Shown piece by piece: positions 21,117-56,162 of a stretch of DNA of 64,000 nt. Position 1 is the first letter of the stretch. Each line of letters opens with the position of its first letter. The translations under genes and the position numbers were made by a program. Source of the DNA: Sodiomyces alkalinus F11 (Eukaryota > Ascomycota > Sordariomycetes > Glomerellales > Plectosphaerellaceae); contig NW_021167084.1 of NCBI RefSeq assembly GCF_003711515.1, forward strand, positions 1,529,932-1,593,931, written 5' to 3'. Under the pieces are notes generated by a model. It saw only the letters and a program-made list of their open reading frames with translations. It was not told the origin of the DNA and ran no database searches.

Positions 21117-22039
21117 CCAGCAAGTGCCAGTACATATGTAGGTTCGGTATGCGGGCAGACAAGGATATATTGGCGACGGAGATCACCGACCGGAGGAATC
21201 CAGCCACGCTTATGAGGAAGACGTGGGAGATTTTGTCTGCTATTGCGGTGGGTGATATTGTGGCGGGTCGGTAAAGTGGAAGTCGGGTCAAGTTACTAGT
21301 TAGAGTGGTGCATGAAGGTTGAGATGCTTCCGACAGACACGACCGACCCCCACGGCGAGGGGAAGCGCAAGGTCGTGCCCCCCAATAATATGCGCGCATT
21401 TTTCAGACGTATATCGAGAATGCAGGGATTGGTGGCGATATCAAAGAAGAAAATATGTGAATAAAGGGCGTTGGTCGATCAATGACGCCTCAATGGTAGC
21501 TTACCGAGCTGAGTGACCAGGTACGAACCGTTTTATGGAGACGAGAAACGGAGGGCTGGGAAGAGGCGCGGCTTGAACGTATATTTGAGAACCCTGATGG
21601 CTCGGTCCAATCTTTCCGTCACTAGGTAGGACATAACAGTACCTTAAATTTCACCAAACGGTATCTTTGAATACTTAGTTTGACATGCAGCTAGGCAGTT
21701 ATAATAAGTATTTCTTTCTTAATGCACTGCTACAGGGCAAGTACCTACCCGAAGCTGCTACCTGCTAGCAACTTGCATCGATTTCTGGCGGGAAGGCACG
21801 CGGCATACCGCCACCAGCCCTTGTATAAATCCTCCCAATCTCACATGGCACCCCTCGTAACTCGCACTTCTTCCCTCCCTCCACCCCTCGCCTTCGTTTT
21901 ACCACTCCCCTCCAGGCTTATTCGAGGAGATCAAGACAAGCCAGCTGCTGGCGTTCCGTTCTGTCAATCCACCACAATATCCAACTCGCCAACTCCCCAT
22001 TTTTGTGTAGCCACACTCCAGCAGCCATCTCTCTCCAAA
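21117..22039. other. upstream region of the CX8C surface-protein gene
   Basis: Non-repetitive sequence returning to normal composition after the transposon. Contains one copy of the shared 15-bp element (21587-21601), a CAAGGT at about 21368-21373 and a pyrimidine-rich leader from about 21860. A TATAAAT lies at about 21823. Confidence 0.55.
21587..21601 (-). promoter_or_regulatory. shared upstream element, copy 1 (minus orientation)
   Basis: On the minus strand this reads GCCATCAGGGTTCTC. It is identical over 17 bases (with two more 5' bases, GA) to the copy at 24101-24115 upstream of the ZIP gene. It lies about 440 bp upstream of the CX8C surface-protein start. Confidence 0.55.
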
Positions 22040-22699
22040 ATGAAGGTCACCCAGCTCCTCGCCCTCATGGGCGCCGTCACCGTCTCGCTCGCTCAGTCCC
22101 TTCCTCCTGCTCCCACCGCCTCGGTCGGCTGCGAACCTCACGGTGACCATTGGCACTGCGAAGGTCCCGCCGAGTCTGGCGCCGCCGCGGAACCCTCCCA
22201 TACCCACTCTCACTCCGACGACGACGATCACGAGCACGAGCACGAGGACGACGACGACCACGACCACGAGTCCACCCACCCGGACCTGCCTCCCTCGCCG
22301 ACCGCATCTGTCGGCTGTGAACCCCACGGCGACCATTGGGACTGCGAAGGCCCTGTCGAGACCGATTCTCTCGCTTCTGCCTCGGCCAGCGCTACTGGCA
22401 TTGCCGACGACCACGAACATGACCACGACGACGGGCATGAAGACGACGACCACGAGTCCACCCCCCACCCGGACCTGCCTCCTTCGCCTACCGCCTCGGT
22501 TGGCTGCGAGCCCCACGGCGACCACTGGCACTGCGAGGGCCCCGTTGCTTCTGCCACTGACGAGGGCCCCGTTGCTTCTGCCACTGACGATGAGGCCGCC
22601 GCCGCTAGCAGTTCCGTGGTGGATGACGACTTTTCTGGCGCCTCCCAGGTTGTTGCCGGTGCTGGTGTCGCTGTCCTGGCTGCCCTTCTTGCCCTCTAA
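22040..22699 (+). CDS. small GPI-anchored surface protein with three CX8C His-rich modules
   Basis: Single exon, 219 residues. ATG 22040 was chosen because it opens into a clear signal peptide (MKVTQLLALMGAVTVSLAQS) and has a good context (CCAAAATG); the frame is open further upstream without protein character. Three near-identical repeats TASVGCEPHGDHWHCEGP place Cys pairs at 31-40, 93-102 and 156-165 (CX8C with three or four His between, one His replaced by Asp in repeat 2). Linkers are acidic and His-rich (HEHEHEDDDDHDHE), a metal-binding composition. The C-terminus (SGASQVVAGAGVAVLAALLA) is a GPI-anchor signal. It probably sits on the plasma membrane or wall and binds Zn or another divalent metal. 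The same CX8C module occurs in the ZIP transporter 3 kb downstream. Function is inferred. Confidence 0.82.
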   Translation: MKVTQLLALMGAVTVSLAQSLPPAPTASVGCEPHGDHWHCEGPAESGAAAEPSHTHSHSDDDDHEHEHEDDDDHDHESTHPDLPPSPTASVGCEPHGDHWDCEGPVETDSLASASASATGIADDHEHDHDDGHEDDDHESTPHPDLPPSPTASVGCEPHGDHWHCEGPVASATDEGPVASATDDEAAAASSSVVDDDFSGASQVVAGAGVAVLAALLAL

Positions 22700-23381
22700 G
22701 TTAGGACCTATGTAGTTCATATCCCGCCCTTTCCAGAAAAAAAGAAAGAAAAAAAAAAAGGAACGAGAATTGACGCAATGGGAGTCGTGTTCAATGAGAG
22801 GAATTGACAGGACATGGTAAATGGGCGGCGGAGGGGATTTTGGGGTTTCTTTTCACAACTACGAAATACTTGAGGATGCATCTTGGTTTACTCCTTAAGG
22901 ATTCGTACCTGTATTCTAGCTCTTTTATAGAAGTGATTCGTCTAATTATTTCATGACATCTTCGTGGTCCCAGATTAAAGAGATCCTCGTCCCAACTTGC
23001 GATGCCTTGAGAGACGTTCGTGGATAAGCTATTATGCGGCCCGCGCTGCAGTGGCCCGCGCAATGGATGGTCAAGTGATTGGGAAATGAAATAAATCTCG
23101 TTGCTGTGTTTCCGTATACTGACTTTGAACTCGAGATTTGTGTAGCTGTCCTGTTCCTGTGACAGGATCAAGGGACGGTGGAACCTAAATTGCAGCCGCC
23201 ATCAAGGAGGGAGCAAGTGTCGCAGCAGAAGTCCTGGTGCACGCGGTATTCTTTCAAAAGGGATCGCCGTCGAACTCGAGTTTTTCCTTTACTTTAGACC
23301 ATTGGATTCATCCAAACCTCCCCCATGTGGTTGGTTGCAGGCATATGAGACCGCGTCCAGCATGTGCGACGAGGCCCATAT
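22700..23381. other. 3' flank of the surface-protein gene
   Basis: Contains the terminator region (A-rich run at 22738-22760) and an isolated partial element GCCATCAAGGAG at 23198-23209. A 126-codon minus-strand open frame (22791-23171) has no recognisable features and was not called. Confidence 0.5.
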
Positions 23382-23466
23382 TGTTGTGTTGAACTATATA
23401 CCTCAAGAAGTACCTACACATTAGAGGATTCTCTTTTAGTGTAGCAGTACGTTTTTGAGTGCAACA
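23382..23466 (+). repeat. TRIM left LTR
   Basis: 85 bp; five differences from the right copy, all transitions. Confidence 0.85.
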
Positions 23467-23479
23467 GTTATGAGCCCGG
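23467..23479 (+). other. TRIM primer binding site
   Basis: GTTATGAGCCCGG, intact form of the site seen at 7918-7930 in the large Copia element. Confidence 0.7.
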
Positions 23480-23669
23480 GAGGAATACGCTAGTGTATTC
23501 CTGGAACTTCCCCTGCTAAGACCACCCGTTCGAAACCTAGCCGAGGAGATGCCTTAAATGAGCTTTAGTGCCCTAGAAGACCGCTTATATAAAATAAGCC
23601 GTGTCGATGTAAGTGTGTTTCCAGTTAGCCTTTAAGCACGAAGATCGTCCTTATCCAGGCAGGGGTGTG

Positions 23670-23754
23670 TGTTATGTTGAACTATATACCTCAAGAAGTA
23701 CCTACATATTAGAGGATTCTCTTTTGGTGTAGTAGTACGTTTTTGAGTGCAATA
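23670..23754 (+). repeat. TRIM right LTR
   Basis: 85 bp copy of 23382-23466. Confidence 0.85.
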
Positions 23755-24040
23755 AATATTATTTGGCCGCCTATAGCTATTGCTTACCTACTTCGAAGTA
23801 TTAGGTTGAAGCTGTGCTGGGTCGATAGAATAAGGTACCTTAGGTAAGGTAAGGTAGCAAGACAAAGCACGGTAACGACGGCCCGAAAATTCAAACAACT
23901 TAAGGTAGGTAGGTATAAGAGGATATATACGGAGTTCGCCGAAACGGTATCCAAGAAGGGGAAGGAAACGGTGCGCCACAAAGGCGTGGGTTCCAAACTC
24001 GCAGAATTACCTAGGTACTGAGTACTAAGGTACAAAGGAG

Positions 24041-24055
24041 GCCATCAAGGTTCTC
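24041..24055 (+). promoter_or_regulatory. shared upstream element, copy 2
   Basis: GCCATCAAGGTTCTC. Contains CAAGGT, the core half-site of Zap1/ZafA-type zinc-response motifs. Confidence 0.55.
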
Positions 24056-24100
24056 GGCCGGGAGGCGAAGGGGACGGCGGTTAGCGTATATGGCGGGGGA

Positions 24101-24115
24101 GCCATCAGGGTTCTC
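24101..24115 (+). promoter_or_regulatory. shared upstream element, copy 3
   Basis: GCCATCAGGGTTCTC, 60 bp after copy 2; one base (A to G) away from it and identical to copy 1. Confidence 0.5.
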
Positions 24116-24447
24116 CAACGGGCATAACGGACCAGGAAATCAGGTCCAGAGTACGCGTACTTTATCCATAATTACTACAACGTACACCCCCCGATATATC
24201 CTATACAAGGCATTGTTTGACCTCTTAGCCATAGGCCAGGTAACGTGGTCGAAATTCTTTCGATTTATTCCGTTTACAAGACTAGATACAAAGAGACGCT
24301 GTACACGACTCTTACTCGGTAATTAGACGCTAACTCGACGATAAATACGGCAAATCCAGGTATAAACGATATCTGACCGGTTATGGTCATTCAGAGTTGA
24401 GTCTAGCGCATTCGCAGGATCAGTCTTCGCTCAATATTTCTTGGCGG

Positions 24448-24462
24448 GCCATCAAGGTGTGC
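24448..24462 (+). promoter_or_regulatory. shared upstream element, copy 4
   Basis: GCCATCAAGGTGTGC; the first 11 bases match the consensus. Confidence 0.45.
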
Positions 24463-24589
24463 ACAGTACGCTACCCCCACCCCACCCCACCCGTACAGTG
24501 ACAAGAAGCCCATCAGCCACCCGAGCCACTCACAGCGGGTTTCGACGTCTTGACATGCAATAACCAACACTTCGTAGTGGAGTTGGCTG

Positions 24590-24604
24590 GCCATCAAGGT
24601 TCTC
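24590..24604 (+). promoter_or_regulatory. shared upstream element, copy 5
   Basis: GCCATCAAGGTTCTC, identical to copy 2. About 1.15 kb upstream of the ZIP start codon. Confidence 0.55.
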
Positions 24605-25753
24605 ATTTTCCCATCCCACCTTCCTTTTCCTTTCCCACGACAAAGACCAATACACCAAGACACGAGAGATGGAGCACGGGGGCGGGGGGTCGGGTTGGAA
24701 AATAACAAAAATCTCTTTCGAACTGCGATTTACGGAAACGGATTTTACGGATAGGAAAGAGATCGTTTGTATTCGTACTTGCCTAGAGCTTGGCTCCGTG
24801 TCATGCTTCTCCACCTGTCCGTTTCACGGTAATACGGTAAGAAAAGAAAGAGCAGAAAGTGAAGATACCTAGGAAAACGTCGTAGAAACAGGAGGACACG
24901 AGGGAAGAAAGGGAACTACCCGTCCAGCTGTTAATCGTCTCTACCTTAGTTTTCTCCCTTTTCCATCATCATAGCCCACCTCCTTACCTAGGTACTCTTA
25001 GGGTTACTCTTGCCTCTTCCCGTTACGTTACGCCATCCAGTCAATTGGCCGAATTGCGCATGGCCGATCCCAATCACCGTCGCAATTGAGCCCTAAACCA
25101 CCTTCTATTCGTACCGTTGAGCGCGTCTCCCCTCTTTTGCGCACCCTTTCCAAGTCCTCGAGTCCTTGGCGCTTGGCCCTTCCGAAGCATCGGTCTTCTA
25201 CTCCGTACTCTCCATCACTCGCGCACTCACCCTAATCCGAAAGAAGGTTCGCATTCGAACCTCGCCTCTCTGTCAATCGGTCGTCGGGGCATTACGTCGT
25301 CAGCCTTTGAGATTCAATTTCCTCTCCTTCCCCCACGAACGACGGCTTCCTTGGCACTCTTCTCAACGAGACCGAACGCCCATCCATCGCTCGTGTCATC
25401 ACCTTCACCACCTTCATTTCAAACAAGGGTCCCCTGTAGACTTACGTATCCCATGTGGTCGTGATCCTCTCCTTCCCATCTTCTCATCTCTCCTGGCCTT
25501 CAAGGTTGTTTGCCACATCGTTCATCTCCCTCACCTCTCACATTCCCTCCACCCTCGACGGGAAAGTCTCTCAGAGTCCTTTCCATACGATACATTACGC
25601 GCCAGCGCACCTTGATGCAACTTCCTTCTTCTTAAACGAGACGACTTCCATTCCGCTGGCGATCCTTCGACCATTCCATACCCTTAGAGAACCACAGGTC
25701 GATAGGATCGAAACATCTCTCCGCCATCGTCATCTCAACAAAACCCCCCTGCT

Positions 25754-27917
25754 ATGGCTCGCTCGGCTTTTATCCTCGCCGTCGCGGCCACTAGCGGCCT
25801 CCTGAACACCGCGTCCGCCCACGTCGTCGCACGGCAGACGTCTGTCCCCGAAGTCGACGCCATTTCAGACTGTTCTGTCAGCCAGAGCACACAGTGAGCT
25901 TATATTTACCCGTTCATCCGCGTCTCCAGCCGGCTATGATGCGGGAAGCCGTCCATTATATTAACTTGGTGTTTCAGGTACTGCCAGGCTGATGGCACCG
26001 AGTTCCGCATTGTCGCTACCCCGACCGAGGGTGCGCTACCAAGCTCCTATACCGGCTGCCACCCTCACGGGTCTGATCTGTAAGCATGCAAAACCTGGCT
26101 ATTTCTCTTATCGGTCTTGCTTCTTCTGACACCTATACCCCCATTGACACTAGATACTGCTTCCACGATGATGGCGAAGTCGAGGTCGCCTTGGCCGGGG
26201 CCGCCGTCACCCCGGCACCCACTGCCACGAATGACGCTCATGACCACGACGACGAACACGACTCCGGCGAAGTAACCGCCGTATCCGACTGCCGTCTGGA
26301 CGGCCAGGATGTGTAAGTTACCCGTTGGACTCCACGTCGCCGGGTAGTTTGTGCCTATGCTTACCATCGCCACACAGCTACTGCATGTGGGGTTCCACTG
26401 AGTATTCGATGGACGTGACGGCCACGGCCACCCAGGACATCGCCCCCGAGTATACCAACTGCCATCCTCACGATGCCGACCTGTATTGCGTTGGCCCCGA
26501 CGGCGATGACATCCTGGCGGTCTCCGCGGAGGCCGAAGAAGCGCCCGATGAGCAACACTGCCATTTCCACGCCGGCGTTGAGTATGTATCCCTGCCATCC
26601 TCTCTCAGAATCCTAACATCTCATCACAACATGTACTAATTAGACCCTAGACACTGCGTCGGCCCTGGCGAGGGTGAAAACCAGGGCACGCGTTCCTGCG
26701 AGCGCGTCGACCGGCAGTACAACATCCCTCTTCGAGTTGGCCTTCTCTTTGTGGTCCTGGTCACCAGCGGCCTTGGTATGGGTTTTTCCTTTTTCCCTCT
26801 CCTTTCCTTCCTTTCCCTTTTTTCTTTCGGGGTTTTTTTCTTCTTCTTTTTCTTCCTGTCATCATCCACTAATAAGTGCTCTCTCAGGTGTTTTCGGTCC
26901 CATCTTCCTCATGAAGCTCCTCCCACCCAAGGCCCACGTCGTCTTGATCATCATCAAACAGTTCGGAACCGGTGTCATCATCTCCACCGCCTTCATCCAT
27001 CTGTACACCCATGCTCAGCTCATGTTCAGCAATCCGTGCCTGGAAGGCGTCGAGTTTGAAGGTACTACGGCTGCCATTGTCATGGGCGGTCTGTTTCTGT
27101 CGTTCTTGGTCGAGTTTATTGGCCAGAGAATTGTGCGTCATAAGATGTCTCACCGTCCCTTCCAGAGCGCTTGGTTCCGACCTGAGACGGTCAGCATCTT
27201 GGTCATGGAGGCCGGCATCATTTTCCATTCCGTCCGTACGTGTTCCTCCTCTTCCCCCCTACTTTTTGGATATTGCCCAGGTATTCTCCCCGAAATGGTG
27301 TCCCGAGCTAATCAAAACTTGTAGTCATCGGCATTACGCTTGTCGTGGCTGGCGACAGCTTCTTTCTCACACTCTTCATCGTTATCGTATTTCACCAGTT
27401 CTTTGAAGGTCTCGCCTTGGGCAGCCGCATCGCTGCTCTCGGTACCCAGCCCGCCGTCCAGCAAGTCGCTCAGCGTATCGGCGGCCACGGCCACATGCAC
27501 GTTTCTGGCCCCATGTCGTCGAAGACCGCGTCCGGGGCCGAGCCCACCGCCGAAGCGTCGCCTGAAGGTTCTGTCGACTCTAGCGACGTGAATGGGAAGG
27601 TCCAGCAGTTTACTCTCGTCAAAAAGTGCGTGCTTGCCGGCGCTTTTGCCCTCATCACGCCTGTGGGTATGGCGATCGGTATTGGCGTTCTAGACCACTT
27701 CAACGGCAACGACCCCAGCACAGTCCTCGCAATCGGTATTCTCGATGCCGTTTCTGCCGGTATTTTGGTCTGGGTTGGCGTGGTGGAGATGTGGGCCGAA
27801 GACTGGATGTTCGGATCGTCGGAGCTGATGAACGCTAACTGGGTTGTCACCACGCTCGCCATGTTTGGCATGATGGCGGGTATGGCGCTTATGGGTCTGC
27901 TCGGAAGGTGGGCATGA
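25754..27917 (+). CDS. ZIP-family metal (zinc) transporter with extracellular CX8C modules
   Basis: Seven exons: 25754-25893, 25978-26079, 26154-26312, 26378-26581, 26651-26775, 26888-27235 and 27325-27917; 1671 nt, 556 residues, all junctions in frame. Residues 1-22 are a signal peptide. An extracellular region to about 225 carries five CX8C modules (Cys 40-49, 74-83, 127-136, 162-171, 195-204), several of the form CHPHxxDLYC, with His/Asp-rich linkers. The ZIP core follows: first span about 228-250, HS at 357-358 in span 4 and HQFFEGLALG in span 5 (His383, Glu387), the metal-binding signature. Most Zrt1-type fungal ZIPs are near 350-400 residues, so the N-terminal extension is the unusual part. 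It should import Zn(II) across the plasma membrane. The family is certain, the metal is inferred. Confidence 0.9.
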
Positions 27918-46119: not shown

Positions 46120-49100
46120 CTACCGTGGCGTAGCTTCATAACCAAGGAGTTCCTTGATATCCTCAATCCTCTGCAGTTTCTTCTCCTCATCATTCATCAT
46201 GCCGAGAGACGTTGCCCTGTAGAAAAACGGAGTCAGTCAGTGCAAAAAGTAAAGCAAAAGAAAAGGACAGAGGGATAATTAGTAGAAAACGCACAGAAAC
46301 TTCTTCCGCTCCTGCACCCGGAGCATCCTCTCTTCCACGCTCGCCTTCACAATAAACCGATACACCTTCACCTCCTCATCCTGCCCCATGCGGTGGACGC
46401 GGTCAATCGCCTGCGCCTCCACAGCGAAGCTCCACCACGGATCCATCATGAACACGCGCTTGGCCGACGTCAGGTTGAGCCCCACGCCCCCCGCGCGGAG
46501 GGAGATGAGCAGCACCGTGAAGCCCCTGGCCTCCTGAAACTCAGCCAGCACCGCCGCGCGCGCCTTCTGCGCCATCGTCCCGTCCAGCCGCAGGAACCCG
46601 ACCCCCGCCTTCTCCAGCGCCGGCTCGATGAGCGACAGGAACGACGTGAACTGGCTGAAGACGACCGACTTCATGTGCGGGTGCTCCCGCCGCAGGTCGC
46701 GGAGCCCCTGGATCAGCGCCACCACCTTGGCCGACGACTGCTGCGTCCCGCCCCCCGCCACCCGCTGCAGGCTGATCTTGGGCTTCTGGAACATGTCCAG
46801 CACGTCGTCGTACCGGACCACCTCGAACAGGTCGCGGTAGTTGACCACCGCCCGGCAGTTGGGGCACGTCGGCACCTTCCCCCTGTCCGTCTGGTGTTTC
46901 ATAAAGTCCAGCAGGCACTTCTTGCAGGCCGAGTGCCAGCACCCCCCCGTGACCGTCTGTTCGACCATTGGCTCCTCGGTGCAGATCGGGCACTCGCTCG
47001 CGGCCTCGTCCCGGATCTGGCTCAGCACGTGGGCGCCAAACGTGTTGGGATTCGTCTCGGAATCCGACGTGGTGGCGGAGAATTGCTCGATGAGGACGTT
47101 GAGGTCCATGTCGTCCGCCAAACCGGCTGCCCGGTCCGCCGCTGCACTTGCCTCTTCTTCCTCTGCGACGATGTCACGATTGCGGACGAGAATCGGGTGA
47201 CAGCAGGTCTGTCTCAGCCGCAAGATCTGCGCGAAAATGCTCGTGAAAGCCTTCATGACTGTACCGGCCTCCATGTTCTTGGAGAATGTCTGCTTCGCTC
47301 GGAGGAAGATGTAGTCATAGATCTCGCGTTCGGTCTCTCCGAGCTCCACCTCCACGATCTCCACCGATTTTGGGGGGAGGGGAACCAGTCTTGTGAAAGG
47401 GGGGTAGTGTCAGCAACGTTTCCATGGCATAATACCTCACACACACACAGAGAGAATGACTCACGGCTCTCCATCCGGCGTCTTCATCTCCTTGGTCCGT
47501 CTCAGCACCAGGGGCTCCAATACGGTCTGGACCACATCGAGGGCTCGCACAAAGTTCTTCGACTCGAACGGGACGGTGATGAAGGTCTTCCAGAAAGAAA
47601 AGTTGTTCCAAGGCTCCACGCGGAGGAAACGGACAAGACTGAACAGGTCCTCCAGCCTGTTCACGATGGGCGTGCCGGTCAACACCCAGCGATGCTCGGC
47701 ACTAATCTCGTAGCACGCCTTTGCGGTCTTGGACAGCCTGTTCTTGATGTGGTGACCCTCGTCGAGGATGACGCGGAAGAACTCGAGGCTGAAGATGCCC
47801 GTGTGGGACGACCGGTCGCCTTTCCTTGCGACGACCTGCGTGAATTCGGACAGGACGACCCCATAGCTGGTGATGACGACGTCGGGAGCTGAAGCAGCGT
47901 TCGCTTCGCAGCACAGGGCTTGCAGGTTCGAGTTGGCCTTTTCCAAGCCGTAGTATACCATGACCTTGAGCGTGCCCTCCTTGGACGCCTTCTCGGCCTC
48001 GCTCTGCCACTGCGAGAGCAGCGACATGGGGGCAATGACAAGGGTCGTGCAGGGGGCACGCAGGACGTGCGATGCGTGGTGGGATAGACGAGGGAGATCG
48101 TTCACCGAGATGGCGTTGCCGTTCAGTCTCTTGGCGCCCAGGGCGACGTCGGATCGGTGGGAATGGATCAAACTCAGCATCTGGATCGTCTTCCCGAGAC
48201 CCATCTCATCAGCAAGGATACCACCGAGACAATGCTGCTCCTGGACGGGGAATTCGAGCGAGAGATCGCCCGAGTAGGGGTTGATGTAGAAGTGAGTTTG
48301 ATCTTGAACAACAGGCAAGGGGTTATCGTCGACGTCCTTCGTAGGCCAAGCGTACTCCTCCCAAAGGGGATGCATGCTGGGTTCCCGGCTGCTCTTGAGG
48401 TCTTTTTCTTTGGTCATCATCCAGTGGAGAGCCTGCCTCTGGTAAGGCCGGAGCGTCATGGCAAAAGTGTCGGCGGGCTCTGCCTCTGGCGTGCTAAAGT
48501 CGAAGGATTGGGCTTTTTGGTACAGCGCGTCGAGTTGGTCCTGCTCCAGCTCTTCCCCATCCTCATCAACGTCCTCCGAAGGCGGAGACGAGGTGGGATC
48601 TTTGGAGGCAGGCAGCGGCTCCTTTTCCTTTTCCTTTTCCCTTTCCCTTTCCCTTTCCGCCTTGGTCTTGTCGTCGCGCTCGGCCGCTTTCACCAGCCCT
48701 TGACGTTGCTCTTTCGATGACGCGCTATTCGATCGGGTCGGGTCAAGGTTGACTTCCTGCAGCAGCCTCACCAAGGCCACTTGCCTCAGCCGAAGGTTTT
48801 TCTCTTCGGAAGATTCCTCCTTTTCGAAGAGTGCCAGGGTCCGATTCGAATCCGACACGTGGAACGCTTGTGTCTCGAAGGCCGATGCGAGCAGGTAGCA
48901 TCGCAGCTGGATGAAGATGGTGTCGTTGGTCCGTAGACGTTCAGGGGCGTAGACGCAGGTTCCTTCGAACCTGCAGAGCTTCTGGTCTATGAGCGTCGAA
49001 ACCCAGTTGGCCGTGTCCTTGGCCAGCCTCCCAATCTCCGTCCCGTCCTTGTTGGTGAATCGGACGAGGACATCGACGCGCCGGGAAGCAGCAGGGCTCG

Positions 49101-49815
49101 GTCGCTGAGGGGCCACCGCCACGCCAAGCTTGGCCGTGACCCGGGGAGGCTTCGGCGGTTGGATCTTTTGTCTTTCGATCTTGACCACGTCTCCGTGTTT
49201 CAGTAGGTTGCTACCACTGCGCGTGGCCCATCCTTCGACTCCAAAGGCGCCAACGTAGCGTGTTTCGGGCATTGAACGACGAATAGCGGGTTTCGGTGTA
49301 TCTTGGTCCGACGACTCTCCCATCGAGATAGTATTTGGAGGGGTCGCACAAGCCGCGGGCCGAGCATAAGAGTTCAACGATGGGGCCTTCTTCTTGAGCT
49401 TTTTCCAAGTGCCGTCGAAGTACATGTTGACAGCTCTCTCCAGGTTATTCCCGCAGTTATTTTTGACGATGTCCAACATTTCGGGGTCCACCTTGCATCC
49501 CACGAAGCTCTCGAACAAATGATTATCAAAGCCCATGGGTGTCTCGTCGTCGCGTTTGATGTTGGGTTCCCGGGGCGGTGCTCGGCTGGATGGGTGGTGG
49601 ACCGACCTTTTCGCTAATGATCCGCGAGCCGGTGCAGGAGACGACGGATAGCCCCGCTCATCTTCGGTCTTGAGCTGAGAGGAATTCTGGTGTGTAGATG
49701 GCGTGGGCAACGCAGGACTGGAGGGGTGGCTAGTCGCTTGGTCTGCGTCTGCGTCTGCGTTGGAAAAGAATCGTCTCCTTTTGGCTGGCGGTTCAGAGAA
49801 GTCTGGGCCTTCCAT
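46120..49815 (-). CDS. rad5: DNA repair helicase / ubiquitin ligase Rad5 (HLTF family)
   Basis: Three exons: 49815-47465, 47389-46295 and 46216-46120; 3543 nt, 1180 residues. Domains in order: a HIRAN domain from about 186 (RYVGAFGVEGWATRSG), SNF2 ATPase with Walker A LADEMGLGKT (Lys542) and DEGH box (Asp685), a C3HC4 RING inside the helicase (Cys917, 920, 934, His936, Cys939, 942, 959, 962), and helicase C with RAGGVGLNLTSA and DRVHRMGQ. It ends KLQRIEDIKELLG as in other Rad5 proteins. Nuclear. With Mms2-Ubc13 it extends K63-linked ubiquitin chains on PCNA and remodels stalled forks. The SNF2-RING order and the HIRAN domain distinguish it from Rad16. An expandable Glu/Arg/Lys run lies near 390. 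The intron acceptor before exon 2 is AAG, less usual. Confidence 0.95.
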
Positions 49816-50258
49816 GGTGCTTCCTTAGTTTTCGAATTCCGTACTGAAAAGAGAAAAAAAAAAGAAAAGAGAAAAAAGACCCGTCGTTTGACCCAGACTT
49901 GGTTGTCAAAAGATTGAGCCGGGAGTTGAAAGTTCCAGGTTCTCTTTTTCGGGAGACGCGAATCAATTCATTGAAGGCGCGACTGACCACTCGATTCGCG
50001 TCGGGTGATCATGTGACCACGCATCGACCACAATTTATGGATCCTTACGTCATAACTCAATAATGAAATAATACGGTATGGTTAATGAATTAATACGGTA
50101 GATACATCGGTCCTCGGTACATCGACATTTTCTCTCGCGTCGCGATTCTCCAAGGGACCAAAGTCAAGACTCCCGTCAGACGGCACCTCTCAACCGCTCA
50201 TTAAAGTCCCGGTTGATATATTCTAGACATGGGGGCGTATTTGAAACCTGCTTCCTGA
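49816..50258. other. divergent promoter between rad5 and the NDUFAF6-like gene
   Basis: 440 bp shared by two divergent housekeeping genes. A GGTGATCATGTGACC near-palindrome lies at about 50004-50018. Confidence 0.5.
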
Positions 50259-51713: not shown

Positions 51714-54700
51714 CTATATATCCCAAGTCATGCCGGTTTCCGATGATGCACCCGTGCTCACCCCCGATTCCCCGACATCATCCCCCCCACCGCGCATCTC
51801 TTCAGCCACAGCCTCCTGCCACCCCTCACCGCCCGTCCTCATGACATGATGAGGATTCAGACGAGCCCGAAAATGGCTTTCGCGCCTCAAGGCCGACAGC
51901 CCCTCTCCGGCAGACAAGGCCACCCTCGTGCGTCTCGTCTTCTTTCCAGGCCGCCCCCCTTCGCTGAGGAGGCCACTCTGTCGCCTGCGTTCCTCCGCCA
52001 AGCACCGCTCGTGCGCGAGGATCCCACGCACGTACGGCGCGACGTCGAGGGAGATGAGCTCCAAAGTGCGGTCGAACACGGACGGGTCGAGGTAGGACGA
52101 GGGTAGGAGCGCTTGTCGATCCGACGCCGCGATGGGGCCGAACGCGAGGCTCATGTCGCGGCGCGTCACCGAGTCGTTTTCCGTGGCCGAGGCCAGGCGG
52201 GCACGTATCTTGCTGACGGCAATGGGCTCCTCGAGCGGCTGCATCGAGACCGGCACGGGCCAGCCCCGTGATTCGTGTACGCTCGGAACAAGGCGCCGGG
52301 CCTGTGACTTGAGACACAAAGCCGTCGAGGTGCTGGTATGATCGTAGTCGGCGAGGACGGGCGTCTCGAGGAGTTTGCACCCGACCACGTAGTCGTCTCG
52401 CGTCTTTGCAGGAATCGCCGGCTGCGTAGGGTCGAGGCTCTCCTCCCAACCGACTCCGAAGCGGCCGTTCGAATACAGATCGGCTGTACTTAGCGCGTCG
52501 GAGAATTCGTCGTACAGGTCTAGGGCCGCGATCCTACCGTAGGCAGAGCCAGTTTCCTTCTCCAAGCCACCAACCCATGCTGCCATGTCGGTCGTATTGT
52601 GCCAGTCGCCGAGATCGATGTAGAAGCCGCTCCAGCACTGTGACATGAGTTCTACCTCAGTTCCCGGAGACGACAACGGCCGTGTGGTGGAATCGCGACC
52701 AAGCCACCCCATGCCTTCCAGATAGGTGTCTTCGCTAATGACCCGCACGACATGACCGTTTTCGTCACGGTCACACCCCCTAGGCCAACGCGGATAGAAC
52801 CAGTCAATGCCACCGCGCCTGTCGCCAATGCCTAGCTGGCACCAGTAATTGAGCTCCATCAAGGATGCTCGGAAGTCCCCCGATCTGGATTGGAGGAGCG
52901 CCTTCACGGGCGACCTGTGTAAGGCGTGACCCTCGTTTGCGGCGATGAGCAATAACAGATCAACGGCAAGATGCTCGGGCGGCGGACTGAAGCGAAAGAT
53001 GCCGTACAGATTGAGGCTCTGGACGGGGATGAGACTCTCGTCATTACAGGTCAGGATGAAGGGACGCTTGGACTGGACGATGAGCGTCATGATGGTTGTC
53101 CAGAACTGCTTGTCCTCTTCATAGAGGACGTCGGCTTCTTCGAGAAGGATCAGAGATTGTTTCTGGGCCTTGGGTTGTGTAGGTTTCGACGCGTCCGTCT
53201 CCCTCTGCTTCGGTGGTGGTGAGGGCGGCAGCGGCGTGCGCACAGGTTCAGACCCGACAGCGCTTGGAGCCGTCTTGGCGGTAGCCTTTGGCTTGAAGAA
53301 GGACATGACGGAGCCCTGCTTGCCAGATTTGACTTCTTTTGCCGTCTCGTCCTCCGTGCCAGTGCCCGCGTCTGTCTCGGTCCCGTCGCCAGATTTGCCA
53401 TCTTCCCGGTGACGGTGACGGTGACGCTGCACAAGATGGTTGCGCGTCATGTCTCCGACCTTCTCCAAGACGTCTTTCCCGCTGCGACGGCTGCTGGCGT
53501 TGATTTCGAAGATCTCGAACCCGAGCTCCTTGGCCACGGCATAGACGGTCGCAGTCTTCCCAGAGCCGTGGGGTCCACTGACCAGGGCAACGTTGGATAG
53601 TCGAATGGATTCCTTGGAGTTCTTGGGGATGATTCCACCATTCTGAACAACGGTCTGCTTGGGGCCTACGCTGTCCTCGGGGTCCGTGATCTCATCCAGG
53701 TCGTTACTCTCCTCGTCGCTCGAGACGACAAACCCGTCCAGTTTGGCTCGCTTTCGCTTCTTTTTCGACGCCGAAACGCGCTTCGCCTTCCCGGGCTTCT
53801 GATCAGCTGGACTGTTGCCTGTATCAACGGATTGCACCTTGAGTGCTTCGAGCCAGTTTCGGAGAAGATGCGCTTCTCGGCCGCTTTGAAGAACCTCGTC
53901 TGCTGTTTCCGGCGCGTATTTATGAGCCCAAAGGAGGTCCTCGCACTCGGACTTGTCGAAGGCCGAGAGATGGGTGGCAAGGGACTTGTACAAACGAGCG
54001 ACTGCGGCGTGGGGTTTAGGGGCAGTGGCTGTGGCTGTGGCTGTGACGATGTCATCATCGCTGTCGCTGTCGACTTCTTGGTCATCTTGCAAGAGGGGAG
54101 TCCGTAACTCCGGTCGGACACGTTTCTGCAACTTGGGACCGCTTTCGAAGTGTTTTCGGGGTAGGCGTAGCTCGGGGGGAGGAGGGTCGAAGCCATCGCT
54201 GGTGGTGTTGATAGAGTTGAGGATACGACGAACGTCCAATGCGTGGCGCAAGTGAGACATGATGGACTCTTCTTGTGCTATGTTCGTGGCCCGACCTTTT
54301 GATTTCTTCAAAGACCCGTCCGAGAACCGGGGCGTGACGGTAGAAGCCCGTGGCGTTTCTGGATGCCCCGTGATATGCACTGCTCCCTTCCACGGCCAGG
54401 CAGGGTGTGTGGCGCCTGGTACCTTGAGACCCATTAATTTCATGCCGAAATGTGGGAAGTTGGGTCTCTTCAAAACCGGGCGACTTTTCTTGGGAGAGCA
54501 TGGTGTGGATGAGAAGATGATTTGGCGTGGAGGCTTCGCCTTCTTCCGGGAGTTAGACGCAACTCCTTCGGTAGGAGCAACCGTTTTTGCTTCGTCGCCC
54601 TCCGGTATGGGCTGTTGCTTACCCTTCGCGTCTTTGTCTTTCTCGTCAGCGACCTTCTTCGCCCGGGACCGCTTCTTAGGTAAGGTCGGGTTCGGGGTTG

Positions 54701-55427
54701 ACGCGAGGATGTTATTGATTTGTTCGGCAATTCTCTCTCGTGATTCGCGGTCGTGACCGAACCGATAGGTTACGATGAATGTGGCTTGTTTATTCTTCGA
54801 AGTTGGTTTCCTTTTCGGTCTCGGTGTGTGGATGGCTGGGGGTCTAGACTTGGGAGGAGATCCAAACGTGCCCGTCTTGGGATTCAGCTTAAGAATCTTC
54901 TTCGGTTGAGACTCGTTCGGTTGTGCCGAAGACGCAACTCCCTCGATATTGGACGTCTGCGACTGAGGAGGGCCAACCACGGCCAGAGGAGAGACGGGAG
55001 GTTTCGCTGGCGGAGTGACCGTCACTTCGGAGTCCGGGGGACCTTGAGTGGCTGGAGGGATTGAGTCAGATTCGGGCCCAATGGGTTTGACGAGATGATC
55101 GAGTATGGAAGGCCCGAGAGAAGACGCGGCTTTCCTCTTGGTATTTTGGCGTTTCTTGGACCCCGGCGTGTCTGTACCATGAGCAGTACTCGGATCCAGG
55201 TCGGTTTTCTGGCGCTTTCTCCTAGGGCCTTCCCGCTCGCCGCCATTGCCGGGCTGGCTGACGTGATTGTTGTCAACCTCGCCTTGTTGCCTTCCATGAC
55301 TTATAGGGTCAACTTCCTGAGCTGGTTTCGAGTCGGATGATCCGTTTTGTGCAGCCGAAAAGAAAGGATGAAGCTTCTTCGAGTCGGCCAGGCCGTCTTG
55401 AGGCATACTGGCCACAAGTGTTCCCAT
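51714..55427 (-). CDS. elg1: PCNA-unloading RFC-like ATPase Elg1 (ATAD5 family)
   Basis: Single exon, 1237 residues. A PIP-like motif sits at the N-terminus (KKLHPFF, 17-23). A long disordered basic region follows, then the AAA+ domain: VALVSGPHGSGKTATVYAVA with Walker A Lys624, then EINASSRRSGKDVLE, then LILLEEADVLYEED as a non-standard Walker B (Glu-Glu-Ala-Asp in place of Asp-Glu), and a sensor-1 type FILTCNDES. This combination is typical of Elg1/ATAD5, the large subunit of the RFC-like complex that removes PCNA from DNA after replication. The C-terminal third is helical. Nuclear. The start could instead be Met8. It lies 5.6 kb from rad5, whose product modifies the same clamp. Confidence 0.93.
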   Translation of the reverse strand: MGTLVASMPQDGLADSKKLHPFFSAAQNGSSDSKPAQEVDPISHGRQQGEVDNNHVSQPGNGGEREGPRRKRQKTDLDPSTAHGTDTPGSKKRQNTKRKAASSLGPSILDHLVKPIGPESDSIPPATQGPPDSEVTVTPPAKPPVSPLAVVGPPQSQTSNIEGVASSAQPNESQPKKILKLNPKTGTFGSPPKSRPPAIHTPRPKRKPTSKNKQATFIVTYRFGHDRESRERIAEQINNILASTPNPTLPKKRSRAKKVADEKDKDAKGKQQPIPEGDEAKTVAPTEGVASNSRKKAKPPRQIIFSSTPCSPKKSRPVLKRPNFPHFGMKLMGLKVPGATHPAWPWKGAVHITGHPETPRASTVTPRFSDGSLKKSKGRATNIAQEESIMSHLRHALDVRRILNSINTTSDGFDPPPPELRLPRKHFESGPKLQKRVRPELRTPLLQDDQEVDSDSDDDIVTATATATAPKPHAAVARLYKSLATHLSAFDKSECEDLLWAHKYAPETADEVLQSGREAHLLRNWLEALKVQSVDTGNSPADQKPGKAKRVSASKKKRKRAKLDGFVVSSDEESNDLDEITDPEDSVGPKQTVVQNGGIIPKNSKESIRLSNVALVSGPHGSGKTATVYAVAKELGFEIFEINASSRRSGKDVLEKVGDMTRNHLVQRHRHRHREDGKSGDGTETDAGTGTEDETAKEVKSGKQGSVMSFFKPKATAKTAPSAVGSEPVRTPLPPSPPPKQRETDASKPTQPKAQKQSLILLEEADVLYEEDKQFWTTIMTLIVQSKRPFILTCNDESLIPVQSLNLYGIFRFSPPPEHLAVDLLLLIAANEGHALHRSPVKALLQSRSGDFRASLMELNYWCQLGIGDRRGGIDWFYPRWPRGCDRDENGHVVRVISEDTYLEGMGWLGRDSTTRPLSSPGTEVELMSQCWSGFYIDLGDWHNTTDMAAWVGGLEKETGSAYGRIAALDLYDEFSDALSTADLYSNGRFGVGWEESLDPTQPAIPAKTRDDYVVGCKLLETPVLADYDHTSTSTALCLKSQARRLVPSVHESRGWPVPVSMQPLEEPIAVSKIRARLASATENDSVTRRDMSLAFGPIAASDRQALLPSSYLDPSVFDRTLELISLDVAPYVRGILAHERCLAEERRRQSGLLSEGGRPGKKTRRTRVALSAGEGLSALRRESHFRARLNPHHVMRTGGEGWQEAVAEEMRGGGDDVGESGVSTGASSETGMTWDI

Positions 55428-56162
55428 GGGTTCGAGTGGGAGCTGACGGCTGCCACTATGGTATTAAGAGTCCACGCTAACTCTTCCGGGCATGTTAGCA
55501 GGCCAGCGAGCCAGAGGTTTTCCAATGCGTCGATTGTAAAGGTATAAAGGAATACAGAAATAACCAAGGGGCTTAGCAGAATGCCAAAGAATATCCCTGG
55601 TGCCGGAGTTGAGCGAACTTGGCTCTCGTAGCGGGAGGGAGGTTGGAGATGTCAAGTCGCGTAAAGGGAAGAAGTAATTAAGTACGTACCTTATTAAAGC
55701 GCGTACAACTGTACGTCAGTGAGGATATCGAGGCGTGTACCGCGACTGCCAAGATCAGGTACTTAACGCCCCACTTCCTAGGTACCTTACATATCAAATT
55801 TGCATTATCTTATCGCTGCCATCGGAGCCGAGAAAATGTTATTCCGACTAAAGCCATCCAATACAGGCATAGAAAGATCCTGCACTGTATTGTTACCTAT
55901 TTTCCGTGCCTGTCTCACAGTGTAGACTCGCATGTCTGATACTTTGGTGCCCCACTGTCCATTGGTTTCGCACCTTTTTTTTTTATCTTCCTTTTTCGAA
56001 TTGAAGCTATCACCATCACCTCAAGTCTTGTTGCAGGAATATTCGCTGCCAACAAATAAATTCTACCTCGATAGGATCCCTTAAAGCGACAGGGAATCCT
56101 TTCAGGATCTCCTCTTTGTTGAATGCCTTTTGTGACTCGGCTCCGAGTCCCTAGTTCGCATC
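55428..56162. other. divergent promoter between elg1 and utp8
   Basis: 735 bp between two divergent nuclear housekeeping genes. Contains TTCCTAGGTACCTTAC at 55776-55791, a member of the recurring palindromic motif family, and a T-rich run at 55976-55984. Confidence 0.5.

Follow-up and report, generated by a model that had tools for sequence, protein, structure and literature searches.

The DNA analyzed here (the window) is a stretch of 64,000 nucleotides from Sodiomyces alkalinus F11, an alkaliphilic fungus of soda lakes. In this host, the gene of a GPI-type surface protein rich in histidine (the GPI gene) adjoins that of a Zrt1/ZrfC-type ZIP importer (the ZIP gene), and zinc-response-like motifs lie before both (Table 1). 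An initial annotation had proposed the two as a metal-capture pair built on a common module of two cysteines with eight residues between them (CX8C). Both genes proved to be real: their open reading frame and exon structures were resolved, and the spliced ZIP protein (556 aa) is 100% identical, over its full length, to the annotated "zinc/iron transporter protein [Sodiomyces alkalinus F11]". The spacing is exactly eight in all eight modules, of which the surface protein has three copies of C-EPHGDHW[HD]-C (CEPHGDHWHC twice and CEPHGDHWDC once) and the extracellular part of the ZIP protein has five, all N-terminal to the first transmembrane helix. The further description of several ZIP modules as C-HPH[GD]xDLY-C holds for modules 2 and 4 and fails for the other three; modules 1 and 3 contain no histidine.

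Table 1. Features of the GPI/ZIP locus (positions within the window)
Feature	Position	Strand	Remarks
Zinc-response-like motif GCCATCAGGGTTCTC	21587..21601	-	about 440 bp upstream of GPI start codon
GPI-type His-rich surface protein gene	22040..22699	+	single exon/open frame, 219 aa; precomputed Pfam PF28209.1 from homologues
GPI module 1 CEPHGDHWHC	22130..22159	+	aa 31-40
GPI module 2 CEPHGDHWDC	22316..22345	+	aa 93-102
GPI module 3 CEPHGDHWHC	22505..22534	+	aa 156-165
Zinc-response-like motif GCCATCAAGGTTCTC	24041..24055	+	upstream of ZIP gene
Zinc-response-like motif GCCATCAGGGTTCTC	24101..24115	+	upstream of ZIP gene
Zinc-response-like motif GCCATCAAGGTGTGC	24448..24462	+	one substitution vs published consensus; outside the 15 genome-wide copies
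Zinc-response-like motif GCCATCAAGGTTCTC	24590..24604	+	1164 bp upstream of ZIP start codon
Zrt1/ZrfC-type ZIP importer gene	25754..27917	+	seven exons: 25754-25893, 25978-26079, 26154-26312, 26378-26581, 26651-26775, 26888-27235, 27325-27917; Pfam Zip, Foldseek BbZIP
ZIP module 1 CSVSQSTQYC	25871..25984	+	interrupted by intron 1
ZIP module 2 CHPHGSDLYC	26057..26160	+	interrupted by intron 2
ZIP module 3 CRLDGQDVYC	26290..26384	+	interrupted by intron 3
ZIP module 4 CHPHDADLYC	26460..26489	+	no intron
ZIP module 5 CHFHAGVEHC	26559..26657	+	interrupted by intron 4; aa 195-204; ten residues as in published Zrt1 zinc site

The surface protein and its family

The GPI protein begins with a hydrophobic signal and ends in a hydrophobic tail, its six cysteines are those of the three modules, and a GPI anchor is predicted. 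With its PSPT[EA]SVGCEPHGDHWHC repeats, signal peptide and hydrophobic C-tail it fits the family that carries the precomputed label PF28209, whose features we took from member sequences and not from the Pfam model; judged from its sequence, it is a member of this large fungal family. Protein searches, which detect only whole proteins of similar length, gave 309 matches in one case and 397 when an A. clavatus member was the query, and the matches are "hypothetical" proteins. At least 13 of the last 18 residues are hydrophobic or small in 141 of the 147 family members listed. One Paracoccidioides member is named in PMC5040785, and in openly licensed literature we found no description of the PF28209 GPI family, nor metal, expression or interaction data on it.

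A search of the S. alkalinus genome for a further copy of the GPI gene (E up to 10, four candidates scored) returned the gene alone. The HRXXH domain (PF13933) is absent from the protein, for which Pfam (E up to 1) gave only a sub-threshold PBP1_TM match. Neither the GPI-protein alignment nor the ZIP alignment had a sequence match among solved structures (E up to 0.001; E up to 0.1).

The importer and its published zinc site

Homology marks the ZIP gene as an ordinary Zrt1/ZrfC-type importer with a putative role in zinc uptake. Its protein scores 116.9 bits against Pfam Zip (cut-off 35.1), and the best PDB matches to the pore fold are BbZIP (Foldseek, E 7.1e-5). Beta-propeller Foldseek matches of the ZIP model were weak (E 0.3 and worse) and were not accepted as real. 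Among the 120 ZIP homologues listed, the ectodomain carries five modules in 85, four in 11 and three in 24, and CHFHAGVEHC is present in 118.

This ten-residue sequence, module 5 here, forms the core of the zinc site reported for Candida albicans Zrt1; a Zrt1 peptide that contains it binds zinc (PMC8773511, PMC9780748). For ZrfC, four putative zinc-binding motifs are reported in the long extracellular N-terminus, on which the importance of the transporter for virulence depends (PMC4343018). The C-terminal tail of Pra1/Aspf2 bears a similar Cys-His unit, CHTHxxGxxHC, with nine residues between the cysteines (PMC12663325, PMC9780748). The transporter half of the locus is thus not new, since its module 5 is the Zrt1 zinc site and the ZrfC motifs are published. 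The initial annotation had regarded the module as unrelated to known zincophores and had been aware of no earlier account of CX8C-based capture. In view of the Zrt1 site, the ZrfC motifs and the Pra1/Aspf2 tail, neither view is supported, and the former was rejected.

Modules in the two families and their predicted structure

The 147 listed GPI family members, the S. alkalinus protein included, contain 405 CX8C modules, in which histidine is near invariant at X3 and X6. Because the spacing of eight recurs across listed GPI members and ZIP homologues, it is not due to chance. Histidines are almost confined to one face of the module in both: 75% vs 0% on the other face in the 405 GPI modules, and 51% vs 0.3% in 541 modules of the listed ZIP homologues.

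Modeling with AlphaFold2 (AF2) predicts that each module of both proteins forms a small beta-hairpin with a two-residue turn at X4-X5. The pLDDT is 74-86 for the ten-residue blocks with the GPI modules, 86-91 for ZIP modules 1 to 4 and 59 for module 5. The model of the whole GPI protein is of low confidence (pTM 0.26) and was therefore left out of the fold search. From the AF2 strand positions alone we infer that the two cysteines of each module would face each other. Disulfides are the usual fate of cysteines in the secretory pathway, and both this and the strand register count against a different site chemistry, in which each CX8C would be a 2Cys-2His thiolate site lacking a disulfide. That chemistry would have a precedent in the free Aspf2 tail peptide, in which two thiolates and two imidazoles coordinate Zn(II), and the Zrt1 peptide too uses a thiolate, beside three imidazoles (PMC9780748). 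We consider thiolate sites possible and the less probable arrangement; they would be compatible with the zinc-acquisition reading that we prefer below.

Recurrence of the gene pair

The co-occurrence that the initial annotation had asked about is supported: GPI proteins of the stand-alone kind and ZIP genes of the Zrt1 type are found together, as neighbors, in part of the Sordariomycetes. Among the 27 species found in the listed matches for both proteins, locus numbers are adjacent in 9, both genes are on contigs of equal size in another 9 (Sodiomyces included), and in the remaining 9, which include both Pyricularia species, the listed pair is split between contigs. An Aspf2/Pra1 homologue with the tail CHTHDDGFVHC is encoded on another contig of the same genome, which leaves room for the GPI protein to be neither the sole zincophore nor a replacement for one.

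Likeness of the modules across the two families was scored by comparing their profiles, with 300 permutations for each control. The observed score was reached by 4 controls with all columns permuted, 13 with loop and flanks permuted apart, 44 with the loop only and 4 with the flanks only; this larger set takes precedence over an earlier, smaller control, in which 0 of 60 permutations exceeded the observed score. The score of the GPI profile on ZIP module 5, the last one, was 9.4, within the range of the controls (maximum 16.1). The comparison is suggestive of a single origin for the modules of both proteins.

Since fully and region-wise permuted controls can match the observed score, and since a third of the 27 species have the listed pair on separate contigs, one may suppose that the adjacency is historical, that the GPI protein has a structural or surface role apart from metal uptake, and that the CX8C likeness reflects convergence on disulfide hairpins. 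The retention of histidine on one face in both families, the near invariance of X3 and X6 and the upstream zinc-response-like sites argue otherwise, and we regard this explanation as improbable.

Zinc-response-like sites

A consensus for the zinc regulator ZafA has been published, with sites effective within 1.2 kb (PMC6070888). When up to one mismatch to this consensus was tolerated, and none within the core, the window gave seven sites, of which five are at the GPI/ZIP locus; the background was 8 in 143,264 bases. Within 1.2 kb of a start codon, DYYVYCARGGTVYYY has one-substitution sites at -439 (GPI) and -1164 (ZIP), and the locus has no zero-substitution site. Three of the four sites before the ZIP gene are 1306-1713 bp from its start codon, beyond the 1.2 kb of the ZafA paper, and the number of sites before the GPI gene, one, does not by itself reach significance (12 of 200 random copies). 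The near-identical 15-mer GCCATCARGGTNNYC has 15 copies in 43.4 Mb, of which four are at the locus and one precedes a second ZIP gene (C1:1120683); the reversed-pattern control gave two. Matches to Zap1_zf1 mark two candidate ZafA genes in the genome. The first has no zinc-response site (at most one substitution) across its 9.9 kb, and the second match is within a many-fingered protein adjoining a ZIP gene.

The site upstream of the GPI gene and the importer next door fit a response to starvation better than one to excess. They thereby weigh against the view that the GPI protein is a cell-wall buffer or tolerance protein for excess Cu, Ni, Cd or Zn, which would share neighborhood and regulator with the importer and hand nothing over to it. 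That view gains from the several metals that His-rich repeats and His/Asp linkers can bind, from the published Aspf2 tail, which takes up Ni(II) as well, with lower affinity than for Zn(II) (PMC9780748), and from the putative status of a GPI-ZIP protein contact. We consider it rather unlikely.

Discussion

The pairing of the two genes recurs in part of the Sordariomycetes, and we somewhat favor the reading of the locus as one for zinc acquisition, in which a wall-tethered zinc binder is paired with a Zrt1-type importer and so varies the theme of zincophore and transporter; the binding of metal, induction by zinc and handover are putative. Zinc starvation would lead a ZafA-like factor to activate both genes. 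The GPI protein, placed in the cell wall, would bind Zn2+ along a single face of small beta-hairpins that the CX8C cysteines close, with Glu/His at X1 and His at X3, X6 and X8 as ligands, while the His/Asp-rich linkers could act as a low-affinity sponge. A similar hairpin of the ZIP ectodomain (in module 5, His at X1, X3 and X8) would accept the ion and pass it to the pore. The recurrence of the pair in several related fungi suggests, short of proof, that the GPI protein is an anchored zinc collector feeding the importer, and its metal could be other than zinc. The scheme follows Pra1-Zrt1 or Aspf2-ZrfC, but with a collector that would be tethered to the wall and not released. The analogy with these pairs drawn in the initial annotation is partly supported, by the neighboring genes and the motifs before both of them; its claim of an unrelated module is not supported.

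More tentatively, the GPI proteins may form a second class of fungal zincophore: wall-tethered arrays of one-face histidine hairpins, co-induced with the Zrt1-type importers beside them in part of the Sordariomycetes, with the hairpin architecture of the importer ectodomain, from which they were perhaps copied as an intronless gene. An anchored second zinc binder beside Zrt1, if real, would indicate by what means fungi in which PRA1 is lost or no longer adjoins ZRT1 may gather zinc at neutral and alkaline pH; the host itself is an alkaliphile, and high pH leaves little zinc in solution. Such a binder would also give hundreds of "hypothetical" GPI family proteins a first testable role, and provide a simple repeat hairpin for studying metal transfer from surface protein to transporter.

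The vertebrate prion protein is likewise a GPI-anchored protein with metal-binding repeats, for which descent from a ZIP ectodomain has been proposed; we draw this only as a parallel to the S. alkalinus GPI protein. In Aspergillus fumigatus, gzbA (AFUA_8G02450) is induced by ZafA under zinc starvation (84.8 in the table of PMC6070888), and its name, at a guess, means GPI zinc-binding protein. This induction makes gzbA a lead only, as a possible member of the GPI family, and no A. fumigatus locus tag is among the best 120 of the 397 matches to the A. clavatus member.

Like Zrt1 and ZrfC, the S. alkalinus ZIP protein has a ZIP pore, a long extracellular N-terminus with zinc-binding motifs and CHFHAGVEHC shortly before the first helix; unlike ZrfC, with its four reported putative motifs, it has five modules, two of them histidine-free. 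In Pra1/Aspf2 systems, the gene for the secreted zinc binder adjoins that for a Zrt1-type importer (PMC9780748, PMC12663325, PMC3386192). Losses of PRA1 have been many, and in several fungi its adjacency to ZRT1 is broken (PMC3386192). The GPI gene likewise adjoins a Zrt1-type importer gene and its protein carries Cys-His units, but where Pra1/Aspf2 is a released protein with a folded HRXXH domain and a CX9C unit, the GPI protein has no HRXXH domain, a predicted GPI anchor and CX8C modules.

A predicted GPI-anchored protein and a ZIP importer carry CX8C modules

The initial annotation had assigned three Cys-X8-Cys (CX8C) modules to a His-rich surface protein with a predicted GPI anchor (the GPI protein) and five to the neighboring ZIP protein, and both counts are borne out by the gene models. 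The window spans C6:1529932-1593931 in a 43.4 Mb assembly.

Coordinates of the features discussed (window positions unless a locus or aa is given)
Feature	Position	Strand	Description
GPI gene	22040-22699	+	single exon, 219 aa, three CX8C modules
GPI module strands	32-34/37-39, 94-96/99-101, 157-159/162-164 (aa)		AF2 model, pTM 0.26 overall
Dispersed element	23382-23759		in the spacer; a pair of 90-nt direct repeats, 92% alike and spaced by 288 bp; 26 genome-wide matches, several likewise paired at 286-288 bp
ZIP gene	25754-27917	+	seven exons, 556 aa, five CX8C modules in ectodomain
Rad5-like helicase (HIRAN, SNF2, RING) near large AAA protein	46279-49824 and 51714-55463		AAA protein with sub-threshold Rad17 P-loop match
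Another ZIP-type protein	L046:4690-5940		~20 His-Asp repeats within loop

The importer half of the pair is already known. The ZIP protein is the deposited protein of Sodiomyces alkalinus F11 (Plectosphaerellaceae, Glomerellales), contains the Pfam Zip domain and has BbZIP as its best matching solved structures in a fold search. The motif CHFHAGVEHC occurs in 118 of the 120 best of 982 homologues; a published Zn(II) site lies in a C. albicans Zrt1 peptide holding this motif (PMC8773511, PMC9780748), and four putative zinc-binding motifs are described in the A. fumigatus ZrfC ectodomain (PMC4343018). Introns 1 to 4 of the ZIP gene, all of phase 2, interrupt modules 1, 2, 3 and 5 at one codon (residue 8 of 10), and exons 2, 3 and 4 each have a length divisible by three. 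Because these introns share phase and module offset, and four introns fell at one offset in 0 of 200,000 trials in which six were placed randomly, the ectodomain most likely expanded through exon duplication. The GPI gene is intronless, and the descent of its modules is therefore not readable from gene structure.

A protein search (8000 candidates scored) gave 309 GPI homologues at E ≤ 0.001, and an A. clavatus family member used as query gave 397 matches; among the best 120 listed from each, all organisms are, judged from their names, Pezizomycotina fungi. The family carries the precomputed label PF28209, and the repeat unit reads PSPT[EA]SVGC-E-P-H-G-D-H-W-H-C-[DE]GP. Among 147 listed members, 78 have three modules, 51 two, 17 four and 1 one; nearly all of their 405 modules have His at X3 and X6, and 96% have it at X8. 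The motif text was not found in openly licensed literature.

Module architecture and descent

AF2 models each GPI module as a pair of short strands joined by a turn of two residues, X4-X5, and every ZIP module as a hairpin of matching register (one example being 71-77/80-85 around C74-C83), with ZIP module 5 at a pLDDT of only 59. In a hairpin of this geometry X1, X3, X6 and X8 lie on one face and X2 and X7 on the opposite face. His occupies 75% of the former positions versus 0% of the latter in the GPI family, and 51% versus 0.3% in the ZIP family, figures that describe a pattern rather than a test since modules inside one family are non-independent. Each module would likely form a hairpin shut by a putative Cys-Cys bond, presenting a His-rich face to metal. 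The closure is only putative because free peptides ligate metal via thiolates (PMC9780748).

Between the GPI profile and the upstream ZIP modules the alignment is gap-free, scores 15.96 and includes P-T-[AE] ahead of the first cysteine. Of 300 controls each, this score was reached by 4 when all columns were permuted, 13 when loop and flanks were permuted separately, 44 when only the loop was permuted and 4 when only the flanks were. With the last ZIP module, the GPI profile scores inside the range of its controls. The profile comparison suggests that one ancestral module may stand behind the GPI and ZIP copies.

The gene pair across species

Whether stand-alone GPI and ZIP genes co-occur as neighbors was surveyed in the 27 species common to both best-120 homologue lists, and the proposed linkage held in part. 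Adjacent locus or protein numbers, which are strong evidence, were found in 9 of 27 species (Verticillium albo-atrum, Colletotrichum jinshuiense, Fusarium decemcellulare, Phialemonium thermophilum, Humicola hyalothermophila, Thermothelomyces thermophilus, Staphylotrichum longicolle, Chaetomium olivicolor and Chaetomium sp. MPI-CAGE-AT-0009). In a further 9 the contigs recorded for the two genes are equal in length, so that both genes apparently lie on one contig, which is weaker evidence, ever more so with a longer contig (Sodiomyces alkalinus, Fusarium heterosporum, Neonectria punicea, Dactylonectria estremocensis, Cladorrhinum sp. PSN332, Chaetomium fimeti, Hypoxylon crocopeplum, Jackrogersella minutella and Daldinia grandis). 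The listed genes of the remaining 9 are neither adjacent-numbered nor on one contig (Apiosordaria backusii, Biscogniauxia mediterranea, Fusarium vanettenii, Lomentospora prolificans, Orbilia oligospora, Parascedosporium putredinis, Parathielavia hyrcaniae, Pyricularia grisea and P. pennisetigena); in at least two of these (Orbilia oligospora and Pyricularia grisea) locus prefixes show differing annotations or strains, and the neighbor could be a paralogue outside the matches listed; the other negatives are taken at face value. Orientation and distance of the pair come from the Sodiomyces window.

Zinc-response-like sites

The target of the A. fumigatus zinc-response regulator ZafA is DYYVYCARGGTVYYY, with an essential CARGGT core (PMC6070888). 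Allowing at most one substitution, and none inside the core, the window contains 7 ZafA-like sites, 5 of them at the GPI/ZIP locus: one precedes the GPI start codon by 439 bp, and four precede the ZIP start codon by 1164-1713 bp. None of these 5 matches the consensus free of substitution. The four sites in the 3051 bp spacer compare with a mean of 0.19 in 200 first-order Markov copies, none of which reached 4. The single site within 1500 bp ahead of the GPI gene was equaled by 12 of 200 copies and is not significant alone; it is notable because its 15-mer is the same as the spacer's. In the 43.4 Mb assembly CATCARGGTTCTC has 10 copies, 4 at the locus (reversed control, 1), and GCCATCARGGTNNYC has 15, 4 at the locus (reversed control, 2), both patterns having been picked post hoc with the locus already seen. 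The gene pair is real and conserved, and it is probably zinc-controlled.

Elsewhere, the longer pattern also precedes a second ZIP gene (C1:1120683) and occurs twice before an FAD-oxidoreductase-like gene whose Pfam matches are slightly under cut-off. The shorter pattern lies near a zinc-type alcohol dehydrogenase gene and a DUF2985 gene; no zinc gene is named near the remaining three copies (loci L035, L039 and L040), and the L039 copy falls outside the published consensus even with one substitution.

Near-identical sites at loci L036, L037, L038 and L040 lie near DUF2985, FAD-oxidoreductase-like (two sites), zinc-type alcohol dehydrogenase and Cys-rich genes; that of the Cys-rich protein, which is probably secreted and without a Pfam match, is downstream of its gene. 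A site fully matching the published consensus lies ~210 bp before the open frame of the L046 ZIP-type gene. A ZIP gene at locus L045, which has two zinc-response-like sites ~1 kb ahead of its open frame, is adjoined by the gene of a protein bearing many zinc fingers of the C2H2 type.

Comparison with the classic zincophore

A single Aspf2/Pra1 homologue, with the tail CHTHDDGFVHC, was found in this genome, on contig C7, and none of the genome's 13 ZIP matches is on C7. The classic zincophore is therefore unlinked here, and it is the GPI gene that adjoins an importer. As far as searched, the predicted anchored collector is undescribed in openly licensed literature. The pair is best read as a fresh version of the zincophore-importer theme, in which the importer is known and the putative collector is anchored rather than released.
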